The position numbers and the translations under genes were made by a program. The notes beneath the pieces are model-generated. The model made no database searches. It had not been told where the DNA came from and saw nothing but the letters and a program-made list of their open reading frames with translations. Positions 14,129 through 24,843 of a stretch of DNA of 40,849 nt are shown here, one piece after another. This stretch comes from Sinomicrobium pectinilyticum (lineage in GTDB: Bacteria; Bacteroidota; Bacteroidia; Flavobacteriales; Flavobacteriaceae), in assembly GCF_003725735.1 (NCBI RefSeq), contig NZ_RJTM01000018.1, forward strand, positions 1-40,849. The letters run 5' to 3'. Numbering within the stretch: the stretch's first letter is position 1; each line of letters opens with the position of its first letter.

Positions 14129-14569
14129 ATGAAAAATAATATTTTAATGTTTCTAATCGTAGTTAGTTCCGGTACTATGGGGAATTATTGTTACGGGCAG
14201 ACAACAGACACGGAAACTAAAGTCTACAGCGATTTCCATATCCATCAGGGTGTTCTTTACACTTCCGGTATATTAGGTACGGACCACAAGGAAAATATAC
14301 CTGCAAAGTTTGAAGAGGAAGTCCGGCAGCTTTTTGCCAACCTCGATAAGATATTACATAGAGCGAATATCAGGAAAGAAAAGATTTATAGTGTCACCGT
14401 ATTTTTAAGTGACATAGCGAAAATCGACACCTTCAATGAGTTATACAGGAATTATTTTCACGCTCCTTTTCCTGTCAGAACATGTGTAGGGGTAGAGGGC
14501 CTGGCAAAAAAGGCCAGAGTGGAAATGAGCGTCCTTGCGATTTATGATAGCCAGGAAAAGTCCGGTTGA
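14129..14569 (+). CDS. RidA/YjgF-like protein with a signal peptide
   Basis: A 146-residue protein with an N-terminal signal-like stretch (about residues 1-23, ending MGNYCYG) and a full Rid domain. The domain has the conserved substrate-binding Arg (R117 in PFPVRTCVGVEG) and the C-terminal Glu (E132 in RVEMSVLAIYD). Cytosolic RidA hydrolyses 2-aminoacrylate and other imines made by PLP enzymes. An exported version would act elsewhere, perhaps on imines made by periplasmic oxidases or as a structural trimer. It is last in the hydrolase-peptidase-RidA operon, 56 bases after the peptidase stop, and is followed by a good terminator. Export is an inference from the hydrophobic N-terminus. Confidence 0.85.
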   Translation: MKNNILMFLIVVSSGTMGNYCYGQTTDTETKVYSDFHIHQGVLYTSGILGTDHKENIPAKFEEEVRQLFANLDKILHRANIRKEKIYSVTVFLSDIAKIDTFNELYRNYFHAPFPVRTCVGVEGLAKKARVEMSVLAIYDSQEKSG

Positions 14570-14600
14570 TACCATTCTTTAATTTTTTTAAAAACGAAAC

Positions 14601-14627
14601 AGGCTGCTTTATCTGGCAGCCTTTTAT
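14601..14627 (+). terminator. Rho-independent terminator after the RidA-like gene
   Basis: AGGCTGC (14601-14607) pairs with GCAGCCT (14616-14622), loop of eight bases, followed by TTTA. It lies 32 bases after the RidA-like stop, just before the left island repeat. Confidence 0.75.
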
Positions 14628-14628
14628 C

Positions 14629-14789
14629 GTTAAAATACCGGCCGTCCTTAAAAAGCCGAATTTTACTTTTTTCTTTAAAAGACAAAACGTCCGGACAAGC
14701 CTGATCTTTATATTTTGCATAATATAATTATAGGGCAAAGGCAGCCCAACTGGTATAAATCAAAAGATACAGGTATTTGAACTATAATG
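14629..14789 (+). repeat. Left copy of a long direct repeat
   Basis: This stretch, starting GTTAAAATACCGGCCGTCC and ending ACAGGTATTTGAACTATAAT, recurs in the same orientation at 25421-25582 at roughly 85-90% identity by eye, with a few one-base indels. The final 30 bases are the best conserved. Just beyond it, TATAATGTACTAGCGTTATG recurs near 22008 with one change. Confidence 0.85.
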
Positions 14790-15169
14790 TACTAGCGTTA
14801 TGTTAAGTAGCTTTGGGGATTTGATTTTTCAGGGAGAGGGTGAAGGCTTTTTTATTTAAACAACCGCTTCATGTAAGGGTTGAAATGGGGGAGTGACTTA
14901 CAGAAGGTTGTTTTTTATACCGCCCGGTTGAGATTGCAAATGGAGCTATCCGGTTCTCCCATTTTAACCTTTACATACCGCTTTTATAAGGAAAAATAGG
15001 TGAAGCCAGGTGGGGCTTTACGTATTTTGAGTGCGTGAGGGATAGCAGCGGCATCCTTTTGTGAGGCAGGAACAAAAGATACAGCGGATAGCCCGACCCC
15101 TGACCCCTCCTTTGTTCCCTTCTAAAACAGGGCAGGGGGCACGCCCTAATGCTACTTCATGTGCCTGTC
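14790..15169. other. Intergenic region between left repeat and HU-like gene
   Basis: No gene is seen. It contains the possible structured RNA at 15031-15098 and short GC-rich inverted repeats (AGGGC/GCCCT near 15130-15148). G-rich and C-rich tracts distinguish it from the AT-rich genes that follow. Confidence 0.45.
15031..15098 (+). ncRNA. Possible structured RNA (Flavo-1-like)
   Basis: The string GTGCGTGAGGGATAGCAGCG, a stem CTTTTGT (15056-15062) / ACAAAAG (15072-15078), and AGCGGATAGCCCGACCCC form an arrangement I recall as recurrent in Flavobacterial intergenic regions, possibly the Flavo-1 RNA motif. GGG (15040s) and CCC (15091-15094) could close the outer helix. The match is from memory and the strand is uncertain. 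Confidence 0.4.
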
Positions 15170-15442
15170 TTAGTAGACTTTCTCGGATAATTCGGAGCCG
15201 GCTTTGAAACGCACTTTATTCTTAGCAGCTATTTGTAACGGCGCTCCGGTACGTGGATTGCGGCCTTTTCGGGCGGCTGATTTCTGAATGTCAAACGTTC
15301 CCAAACCGGGTAATTTGATGCGTTCGCCGTTTTGCAACGCTTCCGTAAGAATTTCCGAAAGGGCTTCGAGGTTTTTTTTGGCTTCGGCTTTAGTAGTCTG
15401 TGTACGCTTTGCCAGTTGTTCGATAAGTTCTTTTTGGGTCAT
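15170..15442 (-). CDS. HU family DNA-binding protein (island copy)
   Basis: A 90-residue HU/IHF-type histone-like protein. The N-terminal helix pair (MTQKELIEQLAKRTQTTKAE), the KLPGLGTFDIQKSAARKGRN turn with the DNA-intercalating arm (NPRTGAPLQIAAKNKVRF), and the C-terminal KAGSELSEKVY fit the family along its full length. HU bends DNA as a dimer and helps recombination, transposition and nucleoid structure. It differs clearly from the second HU in this window (32835-33107), which has a strong promoter and terminator and is probably the housekeeping copy. Here it sits at the edge of the island, next to but facing away from the left repeat, and may serve island functions. It is 46 bases downstream of the ATPase stop, in the same direction. 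Confidence 0.92.
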   Translation of the reverse strand: MTQKELIEQLAKRTQTTKAEAKKNLEALSEILTEALQNGERIKLPGLGTFDIQKSAARKGRNPRTGAPLQIAAKNKVRFKAGSELSEKVY

Positions 15443-15488
15443 GAATTTATTTTTAGTAGGTTATATTTTACAAATAAATTAAGATCAA

Positions 15489-17396
15489 TTACCACGGTAA
15501 TATTTTGGTAGAAATGGGTTGCCAATTTGTTCCGTCGTGATATTCAATTGTTGTCAAATAGTCTAGTGCTTTTGGAAATGCACCAATGGGAGTTCCAATT
15601 AAGAAATTATGAATTCTATCATGGGCATCTTGTAAAGACTCATAATTAAAATTGGCATTTTTCTTATCAGGATTAGATGTCTTATAAGGTATTGTACCAT
15701 TATGTCCATAACATTTATCTGCGAAACAATGTACTTTAGAAAGGATTGGGGTGAGAGCACCGTTTCTTTTCATAGTTAATGAATCTTTTAAAATTAATTC
15801 ATAAAAACAATAATGATTGGCTGCTGCATCAATTTCGTAAGATATTTTAAGTCTTTTGCCTTGTTCTATACAGCATTTATAGTTATTTGATATATCTAAA
15901 TTTATAAGTTGTTCTTTTAACTTTATAAAGCTGTTTTGTATTATTTTTAATTCTCCTCTGTAAAGTGGTGAACTTATTTCATGATGCGAAAGTGGATGTA
16001 GTAAAGCTGAAAGTAGAGAGTTTATGTTATCAACATATTCAGTTGAGTTACCAAAATTAGCTAAAAAACGTTTTGTTCTCAATACTAGCTGAGTTAGCTG
16101 ATAATCGGGCAATTGGGTATTCTCGGCATCTGCAGTTTCCCATTTAGGAACAAATTCTTTAATTAACTCTTCCAATGCCTTTCTAAAATAATTAGCTGCT
16201 GCTGGATAGTCCGGGGCTAATCTATGATTTAAATATTTAATTGCTTTGTCGAAATATGAATCTCCTTCAATAACAATTGGCTTATTTATTTTATTATTGG
16301 ATATTGGGTCAGAGTCATGACCAACATACATTTCAATTACTTTCCACTTTTCATTAATGCTACTAGCAAAATACTTTTTAGCCAATTCATACCAATGTCG
16401 GTCATAAGTGGAGATAAATTTTTGGTAATCGGTAAATTCATTTCTAAGTATTTTTAGTATTGGGATTCTATTTCCAGAATCTAAACCTATAAATACATCA
16501 TCTAAAAAAATAACTTTTAACTCTACTGACGCTGGATTAGTACGTAATGAAGCTAAATATAAACAGATAGCAATAGCAGATAATCGAGCTTCATTTAGAA
16601 AATCATTGTATCCTCCATCAATTAGAATTCCATCTTTAATTACCTGTAATTTAAAGACACTCGTAGTATACCATTCCCACTTATATCCGTAGTTAAAGGT
16701 TAAGGGTTCTAATGAATAGCTTAATTCAATATTTAATTCATCAAAGTAGTTAGATAAATATTTATTTAAAATGGTAAAGACTTCATCTAATGTACCCTTT
16801 AAATGAGTTTCAAAAGTAGGAAGAAACGCTATTGCATTTTTATGACACCGGTCATTTCTTGTATAAGCATTTGTAGTTAAATCATTTTGTAGTTGTTTCC
16901 ATCTTTCTTTGAATCTAAAATTACCTCCTGTGCTATGTGGGATATGCTCTCCCAATAGATTTAAGATTATCAATTCAAATAAGTTGGGTTCAGGTTCATT
17001 GTGAAAGTAGACTTTTAGTAAATCAGTATAATCAAGAAACCCTTTGATAAGAGCAGTATTTTGAATGAAAAGAACATTGTGATCAGAATTTACATCAGAA
17101 AATAAATGTGAAGCTTCTGTTCCACTCAAAATTTGGTTTGTCGAAGTATCATAATCTGAAAACTGTAATTTTATTCCACCTGGATCATAGGGTAAATATC
17201 TATTTTTTATGTACTGTACGGAAGTATCCCTAGAGCTTGCGAAAAAATTATTTAAGGCTTTATATAAAGAACTCTTTCCACTACCATTTTCACCATAGAC
17301 TAATAAATTTTCACCATTTGGCATATTTATAGGATCGTATTCTCCAAAATACCCCCTAAAGTTATTTATAGCTATCGATGTGATCTTCTTACCCAT
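15489..17396 (-). CDS. AAA/SMC-like ATPase of the double-DUF262 operon
   Basis: A 635-residue ATPase of the RecF/SMC-like type (AAA_15/AAA_23 group). Residues 5-34 form the usual N-terminal strand set (ITSIAINNFRGYFGEYDP), then Walker A GENGSGKSS at 35-43. A signature-like helix lies at 267-283 (LNEARLSAIAICLYLAS), and Walker B VIFLDD at 295-300 is followed by IGLDSGNR, with a His switch region (STYDRHWYELAKKYF). The insert between Walker A and B (about 100-265) lacks a long coiled coil. Residues 380-500 form a helical domain containing LLHPLSHHEISSPLYRGELK, and 520-635 a further unassigned domain. ATG at 17396 is preferred; a TTG three codons upstream is possible. It begins 13 bases after the stop of the double-DUF262 gene, so they are co-transcribed. 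It probably powers or gates that protein. Confidence 0.85.
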   Translation of the reverse strand: MGKKITSIAINNFRGYFGEYDPINMPNGENLLVYGENGSGKSSLYKALNNFFASSRDTSVQYIKNRYLPYDPGGIKLQFSDYDTSTNQILSGTEASHLFSDVNSDHNVLFIQNTALIKGFLDYTDLLKVYFHNEPEPNLFELIILNLLGEHIPHSTGGNFRFKERWKQLQNDLTTNAYTRNDRCHKNAIAFLPTFETHLKGTLDEVFTILNKYLSNYFDELNIELSYSLEPLTFNYGYKWEWYTTSVFKLQVIKDGILIDGGYNDFLNEARLSAIAICLYLASLRTNPASVELKVIFLDDVFIGLDSGNRIPILKILRNEFTDYQKFISTYDRHWYELAKKYFASSINEKWKVIEMYVGHDSDPISNNKINKPIVIEGDSYFDKAIKYLNHRLAPDYPAAANYFRKALEELIKEFVPKWETADAENTQLPDYQLTQLVLRTKRFLANFGNSTEYVDNINSLLSALLHPLSHHEISSPLYRGELKIIQNSFIKLKEQLINLDISNNYKCCIEQGKRLKISYEIDAAANHYCFYELILKDSLTMKRNGALTPILSKVHCFADKCYGHNGTIPYKTSNPDKKNANFNYESLQDAHDRIHNFLIGTPIGAFPKALDYLTTIEYHDGTNWQPISTKILPW

Positions 17397-17409
17397 TTTA
17401 AACAATTAT

Positions 17410-20400
17410 TTAATAATGAGATTCGATCTCGATAACTTGTGGAATATTTAAAAGCGATAGGAAATTTCCTCCTAGATTATGCTCTGGAGAGCTAATTTCC
17501 GCATATAGTTTTTCAGCGGCTTCGGCTTTTTTTTCATTATCTGGTTCGGCTTCTAATTTAGGAAACGTTGAAATATAGTTTTTGATTTCAATTTCTTTTT
17601 CTTTAAACTCTTTATCAAAGAATATTTCATAAACTAAGGCATCTAGAACTCTTTCGAAAAATAGTGTCGCTTTATGATTCCCTTCACTATGAATAATATA
17701 ATCAACGATATTTGCAATTTGAATTTGACTATCTAAATCTATAATTGGGATTTCTATCTCATTAATATCAGTAAGTGATAATGGTTTTGTTTCTTCCTGA
17801 TCCTTTCGTTTTTCGATATAGTATTTATGAAAATAAAATCTACTAGATAAAAGCGCTAAAATATATTTTGGTATAAAATTGGGTCTATTTAATACTAAAC
17901 CAATAATATTATTTTTAAATGCTACCACATCATTGGAAATTGCAATATTGAAGCGAGACGATGAATTGAATGCACGAGATATTAGGATTTTCCCTTTAGA
18001 TTCAAATAACTCTCTTACAGATAAATCTATGTCTATAGTAATTAGCTCTAATTTTTCTTTATTAAAACTATAATTTTTGAAAACACCTTGGGTTAAACAA
18101 TTATAATTAACATGAGTATCACTTGATATTTGACTACTTTTTTTTATATCTTCTTTGACTCCTGCTTCTATGGATGCTATCTCTTTAAGAAAAGCAGTTG
18201 TATTATTTTTATTAGGTTGATTGTCCGAATATTTATCCTTAAAAGATTTTACAGCATTTTCAAACGTAGATTTCTCATCTATACTGGCCATTAGAGAAAA
18301 AAGGAACTTTATATCCTTACGAATTTTTGCCTTATTGTGCAAAATAGCATTATATGGTATGTCAAATAAAAAGTACCAAAGGGCATAAAAACTTTGTTGA
18401 GTCCTTCTACCTTTAGTAATTAATAACAGTTCATCTAAATTTTTATTAAGGCTTATAGTCGTCAAATCTTTACTTTCTGTTAATAATTCTTTTAACTTTC
18501 GAATAAACTCAAACTCAAAATGATTTATAGCATTAATAAAATCATTTTTGTCTTGAAAACTTTCTAAAGTTTTTGTTATTTCATTTTTTGATTTTAATCT
18601 AAAGTTTATTTTAGTGCCTATCTTGTAGATGTCAATTTCAGATTTACCATTAGATTGATTGGTTTCATTTTTATTCCTGGAGAATTGCAAAAATGATAAT
18701 GCCGTATATATATTTTCATCTTCCATTCTTGAATTGTTTTTCCTGAAATAGAACCAATTTTTGTGATTCCTGTGGGCTGCTTTTATTGTATCAATGATGT
18801 CTCTAGAGATATAAGAATTCCACATTTCAAAGGAGTCTTCTTTTATAGGATATGGTTTGTCATTTAACCTGACAAATAAATCTATTGGTTCAAAATTTTT
18901 GTTATATTTTTTGTCAATTTCAATAACCCATAAATCAAAATTCTTAATTCGGTCTTGAAATTCAAGCGATAAAGCATTAAATTTATTCCCATGTAGATTG
19001 GTTAAAATGCTATTTTTTAGATATAAGGAATATCCATTTTTATTAGAATAGGTTCTCTCTCCATTTTCATCCAGATAAGGATCGCCCGTAAAACCTAAAA
19101 TGCTTAATATCCTTTGCTGTCCATCTAGAACTTCTCTAACTCCATCTTCTCTTTTAAATACAAAAATTGGGGGAATTTTTATTCCTAAAAGAATGCTTTC
19201 TATTATTGATGAAGATTTCTTTTTGTTTATTACTTCTTTTCTTTGATACTGAGGACGAATTAAAAAACGCTGTCGATCCATTGAACGTATGATATCCGTT
19301 ATGGCAATAGAAGATGGTTCTGGTTTATTAATTCTCAACTCTTCAAAACTAGTTAGTTCATCATCAACAGGATTGATCTCGTTATTTCTTTGAATAAATT
19401 CTTGATTAGTATCAAGATAAAGCTTTAAGGAGGTATCGAACTCTTGCTCAAAAAATCTGGCGGTAGCACTATATCTTTCATATAGTTCTTTGGAAAAAGA
19501 ACTTCTTTGAAGACTATATGATTCAATATTATTTACCAAATAAATAACTAGCTTATCGATTAATTCAGGTTTGTCGATTTTCTGTAATTGAATATCTTCG
19601 TTTTCAAGAGCAGAAAATACCCAAAATAGACATTCCGAGATCAACCTATTATATGAATTACTTTGTTTTAAAAAAGTAGCCTTTATCTTTACCAGTAGAT
19701 TCAGTTTTGCTATAAAACTCTGGTAAATATTTTCGATTTCGGAAGTATCAATTTTAGCAAATAGAGCTTCGTAAAACTTTGAAACTATGGATTGCTTTTT
19801 GACAGCATAATATTTGATTGGGATTTCATGTTGAACTAGTAGCTGACGGACTCTTTTAAGTATTATTTCTATATTGTTCTTTTCGAAATGAAATACATTT
19901 GATATGTCTCGATTTAGAATTTCATCTTCTTGGATCTTTTGCTTTAAATAGGCATTGAGATCATCTTCTAAATAGACTGCGTTATCTATTTCTGATGGTT
20001 TTAGAGGTGTAATTCCAGAATTATACCTTTTAAATATTTCTCTTTTTACTAACTCTTCAATGTCGTCACTAATTCCTTCCCTAGATGGAAAACTAAATTC
20101 AATAATACGTAATTTAGTATCCCAAAATAAATCCTGAAGTTCGGTGTCGATATCTTTAAATTGCTTATTAGCTATTCCAATATTTCCCAACTTATGCAAT
20201 CCATTTTTTCTAAGCTTAAATTCATTGCCTTTAAACCGTAAAATAGTTTGATATCTTTGGCGGCCATCGATAACTTCAGTTTTGTCACTATTTTTAAAAA
20301 AAACTAATGGAGGAATTTCTGTTCCAAGGAGTATACTTTCAATAAAGTAAGTAGCCTTTTCATCATCCCAAACATAATTACGCTGATATGATGGTTTAAA

Positions 20401-20502
20401 ATCTGTATTTCGAACCCTACTCGCATTATTAAAAAGACTCTCAATCGACATTACTTTCGATTCAATCTTGATTTTATTCTCAAAAATATCTCTAATATCC
20501 AT
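17410..20502 (-). CDS. Tandem DUF262 (ParB/GmrS-like) protein with TaqI-like target-recognition domain
   Basis: A 1030-residue multidomain protein. Residues 15-175 are a DUF262/GmrS N-terminal domain with PSYQRNYVW (38-46) and DGRQR (79-83). A second, complete copy occupies about 395-560, with PQYQR (417-421) and DGQQR (460-464). DUF262 is a ParB-like fold found in GmrSD, BrxU and SspE modification-dependent or phosphorothioate-sensing defence enzymes, where the DGQQR motif acts in nucleotide hydrolysis. No DUF1524 HNH nuclease is visible. Residues 800-975 look like the TaqI-like C-terminal specificity domain of type IIG enzymes and PglX: GKILISRAFNSSSRF, PKYILALLSSRFYFHKYYIE, ending ERVLDALVYEIFFDKEFKEK. 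This fusion suggests DNA target recognition coupled to an NTPase/nuclease. It is AT-rich, with an ATPase gene directly downstream and an XRE gene 44 bases upstream. Confidence 0.8.
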   Translation of the reverse strand: MDIRDIFENKIKIESKVMSIESLFNNASRVRNTDFKPSYQRNYVWDDEKATYFIESILLGTEIPPLVFFKNSDKTEVIDGRQRYQTILRFKGNEFKLRKNGLHKLGNIGIANKQFKDIDTELQDLFWDTKLRIIEFSFPSREGISDDIEELVKREIFKRYNSGITPLKPSEIDNAVYLEDDLNAYLKQKIQEDEILNRDISNVFHFEKNNIEIILKRVRQLLVQHEIPIKYYAVKKQSIVSKFYEALFAKIDTSEIENIYQSFIAKLNLLVKIKATFLKQSNSYNRLISECLFWVFSALENEDIQLQKIDKPELIDKLVIYLVNNIESYSLQRSSFSKELYERYSATARFFEQEFDTSLKLYLDTNQEFIQRNNEINPVDDELTSFEELRINKPEPSSIAITDIIRSMDRQRFLIRPQYQRKEVINKKKSSSIIESILLGIKIPPIFVFKREDGVREVLDGQQRILSILGFTGDPYLDENGERTYSNKNGYSLYLKNSILTNLHGNKFNALSLEFQDRIKNFDLWVIEIDKKYNKNFEPIDLFVRLNDKPYPIKEDSFEMWNSYISRDIIDTIKAAHRNHKNWFYFRKNNSRMEDENIYTALSFLQFSRNKNETNQSNGKSEIDIYKIGTKINFRLKSKNEITKTLESFQDKNDFINAINHFEFEFIRKLKELLTESKDLTTISLNKNLDELLLITKGRRTQQSFYALWYFLFDIPYNAILHNKAKIRKDIKFLFSLMASIDEKSTFENAVKSFKDKYSDNQPNKNNTTAFLKEIASIEAGVKEDIKKSSQISSDTHVNYNCLTQGVFKNYSFNKEKLELITIDIDLSVRELFESKGKILISRAFNSSSRFNIAISNDVVAFKNNIIGLVLNRPNFIPKYILALLSSRFYFHKYYIEKRKDQEETKPLSLTDINEIEIPIIDLDSQIQIANIVDYIIHSEGNHKATLFFERVLDALVYEIFFDKEFKEKEIEIKNYISTFPKLEAEPDNEKKAEAAEKLYAEISSPEHNLGGNFLSLLNIPQVIEIESHY

Positions 20503-20546
20503 AAATCTTAGACCTTATCATTTGAAATGATATCTTATTTTAACTA

Positions 20547-20975
20547 TTAGTTTTTTTCTTCCCCAACCAACTTCTCCAACCGCGCCATCATTTCGTCTTT
20601 CTCCTTCAACATACGCTCATACAGCGCCATTTTTTCCTCGTGGAGTTTCCTTATTTCATTAATAGGATTGTTATTAAAAACTTCAATTCTGTTATTGAAC
20701 ATTGCATTGTCAGAGAAGTTACAAGAGATTAAATTCACCGCCTGCTCCTCATCAAAATTCTGTATGGCTTCGACGGGGATTTTCAGAGCTTCGGAAATCT
20801 GTGAGAGTAGGGGAGTATCAATGGATTCTTTTTGCTCCAAAAGGGAGATCTTTTGCTGGTTCCAGTCTTCACCCAGTTCGAAAGCTAAAGCATCCTGTTT
20901 GATGCCGAGCATTTCACGAAAACGCTTCACGTTGCGGCCCTGGTGTATTCTGGGATTTTTAGTGGCATGTGTCAT
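20547..20975 (-). CDS. XRE-type helix-turn-helix regulator
   Basis: A 142-residue protein with an N-terminal HTH_3 domain (about residues 13-70): GRNVKRFREMLGIKQDALAF, then LGEDWNQQKISLLEQKE and LSQISEALKIPVEAIQNF. A C-terminal coiled coil follows (about 105-140: INEIRKLHEEKMALYERMLK). Such proteins are frequent next to mobile and accessory genes in Bacteroidetes and act as small DNA-binding regulators. It is the first gene of the minus-strand operon with the double-DUF262 protein (44 bases downstream) and the ATPase, so it probably autoregulates this operon and keeps it quiet. The G+C content here is higher than that of the two following genes, which hints at a different origin. Confidence 0.88.
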   Translation of the reverse strand: MTHATKNPRIHQGRNVKRFREMLGIKQDALAFELGEDWNQQKISLLEQKESIDTPLLSQISEALKIPVEAIQNFDEEQAVNLISCNFSDNAMFNNRIEVFNNNPINEIRKLHEEKMALYERMLKEKDEMMARLEKLVGEEKN

Positions 20976-21219: not shown

Positions 21220-21492
21220 ATGAAAAATTCTGCAAAAACACGCCGTATGAAGGTGTACAGCAAAATATTGAAACGAAGAGAAAAACTAGCGTGGAATTAC
21301 ATGGTAACATTCCCCGAAATACGGTTGATGGGGAAGTGGTTGCAGGAGTGTGGATTTGAACCCGGTCAGGAGATCAATATCGTTACAGCAAGCCGTAAAC
21401 TGGTGATTACCATTGAACCGCAACGGGAAGAAAACGAAGCAGCCATCCCGGAAAAAGCCCCTAAAAAGAGAAAGAAATCAGCCGTTAAATAA
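21220..21492 (+). CDS. SymE-like toxin
   Basis: A 90-residue basic protein of the SymE family (type I toxin, AbrB-like fold). The family core FPEIRLMGKWLQECGFEPGQ followed by EINIVTASRKLVITIEP is complete. The Lys-rich tail (about residues 80-90) may bind RNA or DNA. E. coli SymE is an SOS-induced toxin that affects RNA and nucleoids and is repressed by the antisense RNA symR. In Bacteroidetes, SymE-like genes often lie in accessory regions and may instead be regulators. An AGGAG stands two bases before the ATG, unusual in this phylum. It is divergent from the XRE/DUF262/ATPase operon. No antisense promoter was recognised, so the antitoxin is unproven. Confidence 0.8.
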   Translation: MKNSAKTRRMKVYSKILKRREKLAWNYMVTFPEIRLMGKWLQECGFEPGQEINIVTASRKLVITIEPQREENEAAIPEKAPKKRKKSAVK

Positions 21493-22787: not shown

Positions 22788-23408
22788 TTATAACTTCCTA
22801 ATATCCCATTTAGTAAGCCCGGTAAGTTCTTTTATAGTATCGGCATCATATCCTTTATCCTTCATCTTTTTGGCAATCATAAGGTTACTGTCCTTAACGG
22901 CCTGTTCCTTTTCAAATTCAGCTTGCCACTTTCTTGTTTCGGCTTTTTCTTTATCAAGGATTTCGTATTTGCCCGTTTTTTTCAGTTGGCTCATAACACC
23001 CGCATTGGCAAAACTGTAATATTTATCCTCGGAAATAACCAAATGATCGACAACTTCAATATTAATCAGTTCCCCGGTTTTCATCATCCGGTCGGTTAAG
23101 TCCAGGTCTGCTTGGGAAGGTTCGGTTTCGCCACTTGGATGATTGTGTACCAAAATCATTTTCACGGCCAGTTTGTAGATAGCCATTCTGAATATCTCCG
23201 GCGGGTTTACCAAAAGACGATTAACGGCTCCAAGACTGACCAGTTCTATAAAAAGGATTTTGTTCGCATTGTCTAACCCGACTACCCAAAAATGCTCCTG
23301 ATTTCGCCTGATCTTATTCTCACGTAACAAAACCTGTTGCATTACCTTATAGACGTCAGCGGAATTTAAAACTCTTATTTTTTGTTCTTGGGTAAGGCGT
23401 ACGTTCAT
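22788..23408 (-). CDS. RadC-like JAB domain protein with Rpn-like tail
   Basis: A 206-residue protein with a RadC/JAMM metalloprotease-like domain (about residues 20-140). The metal site is present: Glu38 in NQEHFWVVGLD, then H88-x-H90 in VHNHPSG, Ser98 and Asp101. RadC proteins are abundant on mobile elements, have no proven role in recombination repair, and may be DNA-processing or protective factors. The last 45 residues (MIAKKMKDKGYDADTIKELT, then GLTKWDIRKL) resemble the C-terminal tail of Rpn/PDDEXK transposase-like proteins, an unusual extension. A -7 type TATATTTG lies on the minus strand only six bases before the start (23421-23414), which would give a nearly leaderless transcript. 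It is divergent from the DUF6161 gene. Confidence 0.85.
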   Translation of the reverse strand: MNVRLTQEQKIRVLNSADVYKVMQQVLLRENKIRRNQEHFWVVGLDNANKILFIELVSLGAVNRLLVNPPEIFRMAIYKLAVKMILVHNHPSGETEPSQADLDLTDRMMKTGELINIEVVDHLVISEDKYYSFANAGVMSQLKKTGKYEILDKEKAETRKWQAEFEKEQAVKDSNLMIAKKMKDKGYDADTIKELTGLTKWDIRKL

Positions 23409-23556
23409 AGTTTCAAATATACGAATTTGTATTGTGTAATACTTAGATGTTTTTTAGAGATTTCAATGCGGTTTCCCGTAAATCATTGTTTTTCAAAATT
23501 CTGTATATTTGGTTAAATCTATAATCACTTAAACATATGAAAAAACAATATAAGTT

Positions 23557-24843
23557 ATGACCACAAAAGAGTTTAGAGAAAAAATACTTGAATCAAAGAA
23601 TCTAAAGTGGTTTAAAAATATTAAAGTAGACTTTCAGTTAACAGCTGTTAATTTTTCTAAAACTTTTAAAAGCCTTAGTGAGTTCCATAAATTTTTAGAG
23701 TTACAAAAAACTGGCTTTGAAAATATTGATTCATTACCAGATGAACTTAAAGGTTCAAAAGATTTTTTTACTAAAAATTTAACAAATTTAGAAGTTTTTT
23801 TTAACCGATATCAAAATAGTACTGAAAGCCAATTAGACGTCTATTGGAAAAGTGCTACTACTAAGAATAATTCACAAAAAATTGATTTGTCAAGTACTAA
23901 TGTTTTGACTTTTGATTCTACCCAAACAGATTTATTAATCAGAATTAATGAAACTAACTCAAACTATACGAAAGGAGCATACGATTATATAACAAATGCA
24001 AAAAATATAGGTAGCTCCCGTGACAGTTTTATTGGTGGAATTTTAGCATATGAATTCGAAAATCCTAAAACATTACTGGCTAAAGGCGATACTCCTTCCA
24101 AAAGAAAAATTCAAGAATTAGAAAACCGAATAGAGAATCAACTTTCTGAAAGTGAGAGCCAACTCCTTGAACATTTAGAGAGTTCAAAAAACGAATTTGA
24201 AGCCTATGTAGAGAAAATAGACGAATTAAAAACTCAAAAGGAGTCACTATTCAATGATTGGTTTGAAGGAAATGAAAATTTGGAAGGAATTAAAAGTCAG
24301 ATTACCCAATTTTTTGAAGAATCAAAAGGTCGAAGAGAAAACTTAGAGATTGCTTACGACAAAAAACTTGAACTTTCAAAGCCTGCAAGATATTGGCAGA
24401 AAAAAGCAAATACATATTTTGATAATTATAAAACAGCAAGAACTATTTTACTTGTAATGATTGGGGTAACGGCTTTATTTTTAGGAATCATCTTGGCAGT
24501 AGCGCCTGAATATATTTTTAAAAATGTATTTAAAGGAAATGAAGTTACAATAGTAAGGTGGTCCTTAATATTTATTGCATTTCTGGCATTGATGGCTTAT
24601 GCTATTAGAGCTGTAAACAAATTTATGTTTAGTTCTCTTCATTTATCAAGAGATGCAGAAGAAAGACACGCTTTGACTTTTGTTTACTTGTCACTATTAA
24701 ATGAGCAGGGGTCTGAAATGGATGGAGAGGATAGAAAATTGATTTTACAATCTTTGTTTAGTAGGTCAGAAACGGGTTTATTAAAGGATGATTCTGGGCC
24801 AACGATGCCAAATGATATAATTAGTAAAATAATAAATAAATAA
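23557..24843 (+). CDS. DUF6161-like membrane protein
   Basis: A 428-residue AT-rich gene product. Residues 1-170 form a soluble N-terminal region, 180-270 a predicted coiled coil (KRKIQELENRIENQLSESES). Two membrane segments lie at about 294-316 (ARTILLVMIGVTALFLGIIL) and 331-352 (TIVRWSLIFIAFLALMAYAI). The C-terminal part (SSLHLSRDAEERHALTFVYL, EDRKLILQSLFSRSETGLLK) matches what I recall of DUF6161, a family of unknown function found in accessory regions. A putative -7 TATATTTG lies at 23504-23511 upstream. The small ORF at 24883 follows within 40 bases, probably in the same transcript. Its place in an island beside defence-like genes makes a membrane-disrupting effector conceivable, but this is speculation. 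Confidence 0.7.
   Translation: MTTKEFREKILESKNLKWFKNIKVDFQLTAVNFSKTFKSLSEFHKFLELQKTGFENIDSLPDELKGSKDFFTKNLTNLEVFFNRYQNSTESQLDVYWKSATTKNNSQKIDLSSTNVLTFDSTQTDLLIRINETNSNYTKGAYDYITNAKNIGSSRDSFIGGILAYEFENPKTLLAKGDTPSKRKIQELENRIENQLSESESQLLEHLESSKNEFEAYVEKIDELKTQKESLFNDWFEGNENLEGIKSQITQFFEESKGRRENLEIAYDKKLELSKPARYWQKKANTYFDNYKTARTILLVMIGVTALFLGIILAVAPEYIFKNVFKGNEVTIVRWSLIFIAFLALMAYAIRAVNKFMFSSLHLSRDAEERHALTFVYLSLLNEQGSEMDGEDRKLILQSLFSRSETGLLKDDSGPTMPNDIISKIINK

Follow-up and report, generated by a model that had tools for sequence, protein, structure and literature searches.

A tandem-DUF262 protein with a target-recognition domain and its partner ATPase: a probable antiviral operon in Sinomicrobium pectinilyticum

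Architecture of the two-gene operon

How might a DNA target-recognition domain (TRD) serve bacterial defense when no methyltransferase is encoded beside it? This question is raised by two adjacent genes on the reverse strand of a 40,849-nucleotide stretch of Sinomicrobium pectinilyticum DNA (contig NZ_RJTM01000018.1, positions 1 to 40,849; here, the window). The first (17410 to 20502) encodes a 1,030-amino-acid protein with tandem DUF262 (GmrSD_N) domains, a C-terminal TRD, and a helical tail, as delineated by open reading frame (ORF), Pfam, alignment, structure model, and Foldseek; the second (15489 to 17396; ORF, Pfam, model, and Foldseek) encodes an SMC/Rad50/RecF-like ATP-binding cassette (ABC) ATPase of 635 amino acids from its ATG, which follows after a gap of 13 bp, or of 638 amino acids from an alternative TTG start at 17405. 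Positions, lengths, and spacing were already correct in a first-pass annotation, which had read the locus, including an upstream XRE-type regulator gene, as a new restriction-like defense operon. We consider the two-gene operon to be probably an antiviral system. The best explanation, put forward tentatively and at slightly less than an even chance, is a two-protein antiviral complex of Bacteroidota in which a DUF262-TRD switch silences an RNase-type ATPase.

Pfam places GmrSD_N on two stretches of the 1,030-amino-acid protein (3.7e-23). The first domain, defined by Pfam and alignment, covers residues 20 to 177 (19972 to 20445, reverse strand) and carries QR at 40 to 41, DGRQR at 79 to 83, and FxxxN at 157 to 161; the second, whose borders were drawn by eye from the alignment, covers approximately residues 395 to 548 (18859 to 19320, reverse strand), with QR at 420 to 421, DGQQR at 460 to 464, and FxxxN at 543 to 547. 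A scan of 84,980 species genomes returned 97 relatives, the best 80 of which were kept and yielded 79 loci. The QR, DGxQR, and FxxxN motifs of both domains were identical in 62 of 62 aligned sequences (the window and 61 of these loci), so that the two complete motif sets noted earlier are intact.

The TRD, of the HsdS/TaqI type, occupies approximately residues 796 to 913 (17764 to 18117, reverse strand) and shows low identity among relatives. Pfam TaqI_C matched residues 815 to 913 at 2.9e-5 (24.7 bits, slightly below the cutoff of 26.5), and an 80% identical relative (L076) gave no TaqI_C match at an E value of 0.01. A profile of the C-terminal region (18 sequences, window included) matched the S subunit HsdS 1yf2 at 1.4e-4 and that of EcoR124I at 7.8e-3. 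In an AlphaFold2 model built from the 62 sequences (mean predicted local distance difference test score of 85, mostly above 85 for residues 801 to 1030), Foldseek found the S subunits of BsaXI and PacII and HsdS (type IIB and type I), as well as M.BseCI and M.TaqI. The best E value was modest (5.8e-4), perhaps because three domains compete; further matches to BrxU (6.6e-3), ParB, and, weakly, SspE (0.51) are taken to be due to the DUF262 part of the model. Together, the model search and the HsdS profile match bear out the target-recognition fold that the first-pass annotation had suspected. The TRD stands where an HNH nuclease might be expected: no HNH or DUF1524 match was found by Pfam in the window protein (E value up to 1) or in L076 (up to 0.01), and we ruled out an ordinary GmrSD enzyme for lack of HNH.

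Mean pairwise identity per 40-residue block was 37 to 85% up to residue 720 and 21 to 32% from residue 761 (18 sequences). In two relatives (L072 and L113), the cores are 93% identical and the distal TRDs 49%, a contrast to be expected when a recognition domain switches its target. However, mean pairwise identity falls from 59.5% in the core to 23.8% in the TRD but is about as low in the C-terminal part of the ATPase (26.4%), and low identity by itself is therefore no proof of target change. Behind the TRD, the helical tail (residues 940 to 1030; 17413 to 17685, reverse strand), which includes the sequence VYEIFF, resembles the tails of other proteins that precede this ATPase, and we propose it as the ATPase docking site.

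Conserved pairing with an SMC-like ATPase

The SMC-like nature of the ATPase, likewise proposed earlier, was supported by Pfam (SMC_N, 1.6e-10) and by Foldseek of its model, which matched Rad50 and SMC heads from 2e-10. It lies directly downstream of the TRD-type protein in 17 of the 17 cases with at least 1.5 kb of downstream sequence (gaps of -20 to +42 bp), whereas none of 54 non-TRD-type relatives has it in the locus; the predicted gene pair is thus a conserved one. The same ATPase otherwise occurs in operons of the restriction-modification (R-M) type and in one Mza-type locus. No DNase domain was found by Pfam in two TRD-type proteins and one full ATPase. The LmuB (Lamassu) profile of PADLOC matched the ATPase at 1.8e-9, but this assignment was not kept: in a PADLOC scan of the XRE-type protein and the pair, LmuA was seen neither among all matches of the other two proteins nor among the 25 of 47 ATPase matches listed. 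An OLD/TOPRIM nuclease was dismissed as well, as no such fold appeared among the 50 of 1,061 Foldseek matches listed. On three IMG/VR contigs classed as viral (L211, L212, and L214), a large TRD-ended protein accompanies a guard-type ATPase, and the cassette may therefore travel on prophages.

A candidate RNase site in the ATPase

Behind the ABC head, the model shows a helical bundle (approximately residues 380 to 500); this helical domain (15885 to 16280, reverse strand) bears a triad like that of PrrC and RloC: Arg405 (codon 16182 to 16184), Glu409 (16170 to 16172), and Ser470-His471 (15984 to 15989). Among 31 ATPases from these contexts, the only invariant positions of the helical domain are one proline, R405, E409, and H471, the His being preceded by Ser in 30 and by Ala in 1. 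RloC is described as carrying Arg-X3-Glu-X36-52-His, often with Ser before the His, and PrrC as carrying Arg320-Glu324-His356; alanine mutants of the RloC triad lost anticodon nuclease activity in vivo (PMC2610378). Both are ABC-HEPN proteins, and a type Ic R-M system keeps PrrC inactive (PMC3710099). In 19 AAA_13 proteins, labeled RloC-like in this analysis, the pattern N-x2-R-x3-E...SH is conserved behind the head. Asn is present at position 402 in 27 of the 31 window-type ATPases, and the full pattern occurs in 27 of 31 versus 1 of 452 background proteins; since this longer pattern was written after both families had been seen, only the background rate is informative. Reduced to R...E...SH, the pattern carries no information, as it is found in 120 of 535 proteins, a pool that included relatives from this study. 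Four viral-contig ATPases outside the pattern definition keep R-x3-E and the His, the latter within NPLSH in the twin pair L211 and L214, NPASH in L212, and NPLCH in L213.

Several results weigh against an RNase. Compared with RloC-like C termini by HHalign, the C-terminal part of the ATPase on its own gave a probability of 0.3, and the 89.4 obtained with the head included came from 52 head columns; against single sequences (three DUF4145 and three AAA_13 loci), the best value was 0.7, versus 1.1 for the best control. Pfam matches to the helical domain were few and stayed below the cutoff (DUF4145 in 2 of 31, best 0.001; HEPN in 2, 0.078), and beside these HEPN-clan matches the unrelated FAM86 also matched in 2 of 31 (0.022). 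The best solved-structure profile match of the domain is a designed helical protein (0.0055), and the HEPN-type structures 2jpu and 2q00 matched only at an E value of 1. The Glu-to-His spacing is 56 to 114 in all 31, longer than the 36 to 52 of RloC; by inspection, the canonical HEPN motif Rx4-6H is not present in the window branch; no free-standing RNase was among the 50 of 1,061 ATPase Foldseek matches listed; and the sole background protein with the full pattern is ABC-like, one of only 13 such proteins. Because the HHalign comparisons with single sequences and with C termini alone were negative, we keep the HEPN claim at the motif level only. We therefore propose a guard RNase role for the ATPase and put its chance at roughly one in two. 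The earlier statement that no nuclease is visible holds for DUF1524 and HNH, but the ATPase bears a PrrC/RloC-type triad.

Exchangeable partners of the tandem-DUF262 family

The C termini of the 79 loci comprise 18 with a TRD, 23 with HNH (by motif, backed by Pfam in both members tested), and 38 with neither. Among these 38, 27 have an upstream gene on the same strand whose end is -40 to +15 bp away, and 24 of the 27 genes belong to one family, two tested members of which match putAbiC (1.1e-16 and 2e-21). These 24 loci (L095, L098, L099, L101-L105, L107, L108, L110-L112, L114, L116, L118-L125, and L137) thus combine a tandem DUF262 core of approximately 770 amino acids, with no added domain, and an upstream putAbiC-family gene that usually has two hydrophobic stretches, a candidate defense pair in several phyla. 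In two others (L077, 7448 to 8968; L106, 7488 to 8969), a gene of approximately 500 amino acids lies directly upstream of the DUF262 gene; the two genes are related to each other and have no Pfam match at an E value of 0.01.

A tree of the core (74 rows, quick method, Shimodaira-Hasegawa-like approximate likelihood ratio test) puts all 19 TRD rows into one set of 20 with a support of 100, the labeled rows of which are all Bacteroidota. Nested inside this set is a 58% identical relative (L071, 9001 to 12388) with a PIN_8 protein (6.4e-67) downstream instead of the TRD and ATPase, which suggests that the partner was exchanged within the clade. The relatives thus have defense-type partners (putAbiC, HNH, and PIN). 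The TRD type is rare, with full-length matches in 2 of 395 genomes of the order, the window's own and G272 (the same record as L113). In one discordant case (L061 and L070), the cores are 78% and the ATPase heads 46% identical; as L070 had no settled position in the careful core tree, we do not claim exchange of whole modules within the family.

Genomic context

The two-gene unit has a G+C content of 27 to 31% at 16 to 20 kb (1-kb steps), compared with 37 to 53% at 1 to 16 kb and 26 to 40 kb, and was probably acquired by the host. The region from 22 to 26 kb is likewise low (30 to 35%); it contains genes for RadC (4.5e-37) and a DUF6161 protein (1.4e-58) at 22788 to 24843, a further sign of an island. 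The XRE-type regulator gene (142 amino acids; 20547 to 20975, reverse strand) is the upstream neighbor of the pair and is itself adjoined, on the opposite strand, by a SymE-like toxin gene (21220 to 21492; Pfam, 2.8e-9). Contrary to the first-pass annotation, the regulator is probably not a component: no relative was found by phmmer (E value up to 1) among 1,009 proteins of at least 100 amino acids from the 79 related loci, a test that bears on neither unrelated helix-turn-helix genes nor ORFs below 100 amino acids. The host genome has three more XRE matches (33 to 40% identity).

The absence of a linked methyltransferase largely held up. None was found among the Pfam matches of the operon genes, two close neighbors, and 10 flanking proteins, and a motif scan of the flanks of 18 relatives found NPPF in 3 loci, L062, L066, and L070, with R-M genes alongside in two. 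At L062, a type IIG restriction-methyltransferase in two frames (14180 to 16926) lies directly downstream of the pair.

A scan of 129 neighbors of the 18 TRD-type loci gave PADLOC matches at or below 1e-15 to 132 families, 25 of which were listed. Defense models could be placed at at least 5 of the 18 loci, a lower bound that rests on ten chosen neighbor proteins, with no background rate behind the count: type IIG (L062), a type I S subunit and a PtuA-like protein (L070), type I HsdR (L073), a HEC-01A-type ATPase (L074), and a MkoA/MkoC-like helicase (L072), the last of which we take to be of the Mokosh system. A further locus, L113, follows a MukB-like gene set (MukB, 5.3e-6) that looks like Wadjet, with no PADLOC match at 1e-15. 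No obvious fixed neighborhood is common to the TRD-type loci.

Proposed mechanism and alternatives

In the complex we favor, the first protein would be a GmrSD-like switch driven by nucleoside triphosphate (NTP), with a DNA TRD where relatives carry an HNH nuclease; the second, a Rad50-like ATPase bearing an RNase site like that of PrrC and RloC, would be docked on the tail behind the TRD and kept inactive there. The tandem DUF262 domains would sense infection and change shape: phage DNA, its modified bases, a lost TRD-DNA contact, or a phage anti-restriction protein might shift the NTP state of the first protein, upon which TRD and tail would either keep hold of the ATPase or let it go. Once released, its RNase might cut tRNA or other RNA and stop the infected cell. 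If DNA is not cut, a methyltransferase is unnecessary; and as host DNA must not set off the TRD, a modified base, a lost contact, DNA damage, or an anti-restriction protein is a more likely trigger than a bare site. This suggests that infected cells are stopped by cutting RNA rather than virus DNA. The first-pass reading stands in part: TRD fold, pairing, and defense-type partners speak for it, but with a possible RNase-type site in the ATPase, "restriction-like" may name the wrong effector class.

Of the alternatives, restriction without cleavage fares best, though we consider it unlikely. TRD and ATPase would form an ATP-driven clamp on target sites that blocks phage DNA replication, DUF262 NTP hydrolysis would gate loading, and R, E, and H would be structural. 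The head resembles DNA-clamping Rad50/SMC, the proteins scanned lack a DNase domain, and SMC-type ATPases are found in other defense systems (PMC10952713); yet it would be unusual for purely structural residues to be, with one proline, the sole helical-domain invariants in 31 divergent ATPases, and the sibling architectures bear a nuclease or an AbiC-like partner. Quite improbable, in our view, is an anti-restriction trap, in which the TRD would be a decoy S subunit and its binding of phage DNA-mimic or Stp-like proteins, not of DNA, would fire the ATPase. Such a trap would account for the missing methyltransferase and has precedents in the release of PrrC by a phage anti-restriction factor (PMC2610378) and the detection of Ocr by the PARIS ATPase (PMC12839542), but the TRD diversity seen in L072 and L113 looks more like a change of DNA target than like one inhibitor type. 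We give an even slimmer chance to targeted nicking, with TRD and ATPase bringing a DNA-nicking DUF262 (ParB/sulfiredoxin-like) fold to its sites: proteins of the ParB/Srx superfamily are reported as DNA nickers (PMC12839542) and the model resembles BrxU and ParB, but the nuclease of GmrSD, BrxU, and SspE is a separate DUF1524 (PMC10952713), and relatives of the 1,030-amino-acid protein add HNH or PIN. Least probable is a role outside antiviral defense, as a regulator or stress system that belongs to a mobile island, for which the lack of a fixed neighborhood and the few TRD-type loci tied to defense genes might speak, but against which stand the putAbiC, HNH, and PIN partners of the sister architectures and the occurrence of the ATPase in operons of the R-M type and at a Mza-type locus.

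Should the guard-RNase complex prove real, one NTP-driven switch family would swap DNA-, RNA-, and membrane-directed partners, one guard-ATPase cassette would be common to several defense systems, and the PrrC principle, in which a restriction complex is guarded by a suicide RNase, would reach well past type I R-M; how a sequence-recognition domain can serve immunity without a protecting methyltransferase would become testable.

Comparison with known systems

The window protein shares the DUF262 fold with its QR, DGQQR, and FxxxN motifs with GmrSD, BrxU, and SspE but has two such domains in one chain and, instead of DUF1524 or HNH, a TRD and a partner ATPase. The DUF262 NTPase controls the attached nuclease in SspE and is required alongside the nuclease in GmrSD and BrxU (PMC10952713). 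Two DUF262 units are also found in TgvAB and GrwAB, where they are needed together and the NTPase motif is essential in both (PMC11411939 and PMC12137116); these, however, are two proteins, one with DUF1524, and the available portions of those texts describe no TRD or SMC-like ATPase. Like Menshen, the operon joins a DUF262 protein to a partner. The PADLOC model NsnA, which we assume to stand for Menshen, matched the 1,030-amino-acid protein at 3.7e-55, but it spans 385 amino acids with a single DUF262, and no other Nsn model was among the 25 of 47 PADLOC matches listed for the ATPase. In Menshen, the DUF262 gene is paired with a predicted OLD nuclease (PMC10952713).

With PrrC and RloC, the ATPase shares a Rad50-like ABC head followed by R-x3-E...SH, and the type I R-M enzyme EcoPrrI is both the linked partner and the silencer of PrrC (PMC2610378 and PMC3710099). 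The window ATPase differs in its longer spacing, an extra C-terminal part, and no zinc hook by eye; its partner is a DUF262-TRD protein without a methyltransferase, and similarity beyond the head is not significant. Type IIG R-M operons with an HKD/SNF2 helicase have the same TRD and tail, homologous across the different protein chassis, and the same ATPase directly downstream, but unlike the window they encode a methyltransferase together with a PLD-helicase, as tested with PADLOC in L054 and L055. No matching description was found in the literature searched, in line with the novelty suggested at first, although the pairing of ATPase and methyltransferase may be known from work on ABC ATPases (Krishnan et al. 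2020). The parts are of known kinds; to our knowledge, the novelty lies in how they are combined and in the guard-RNase reading.
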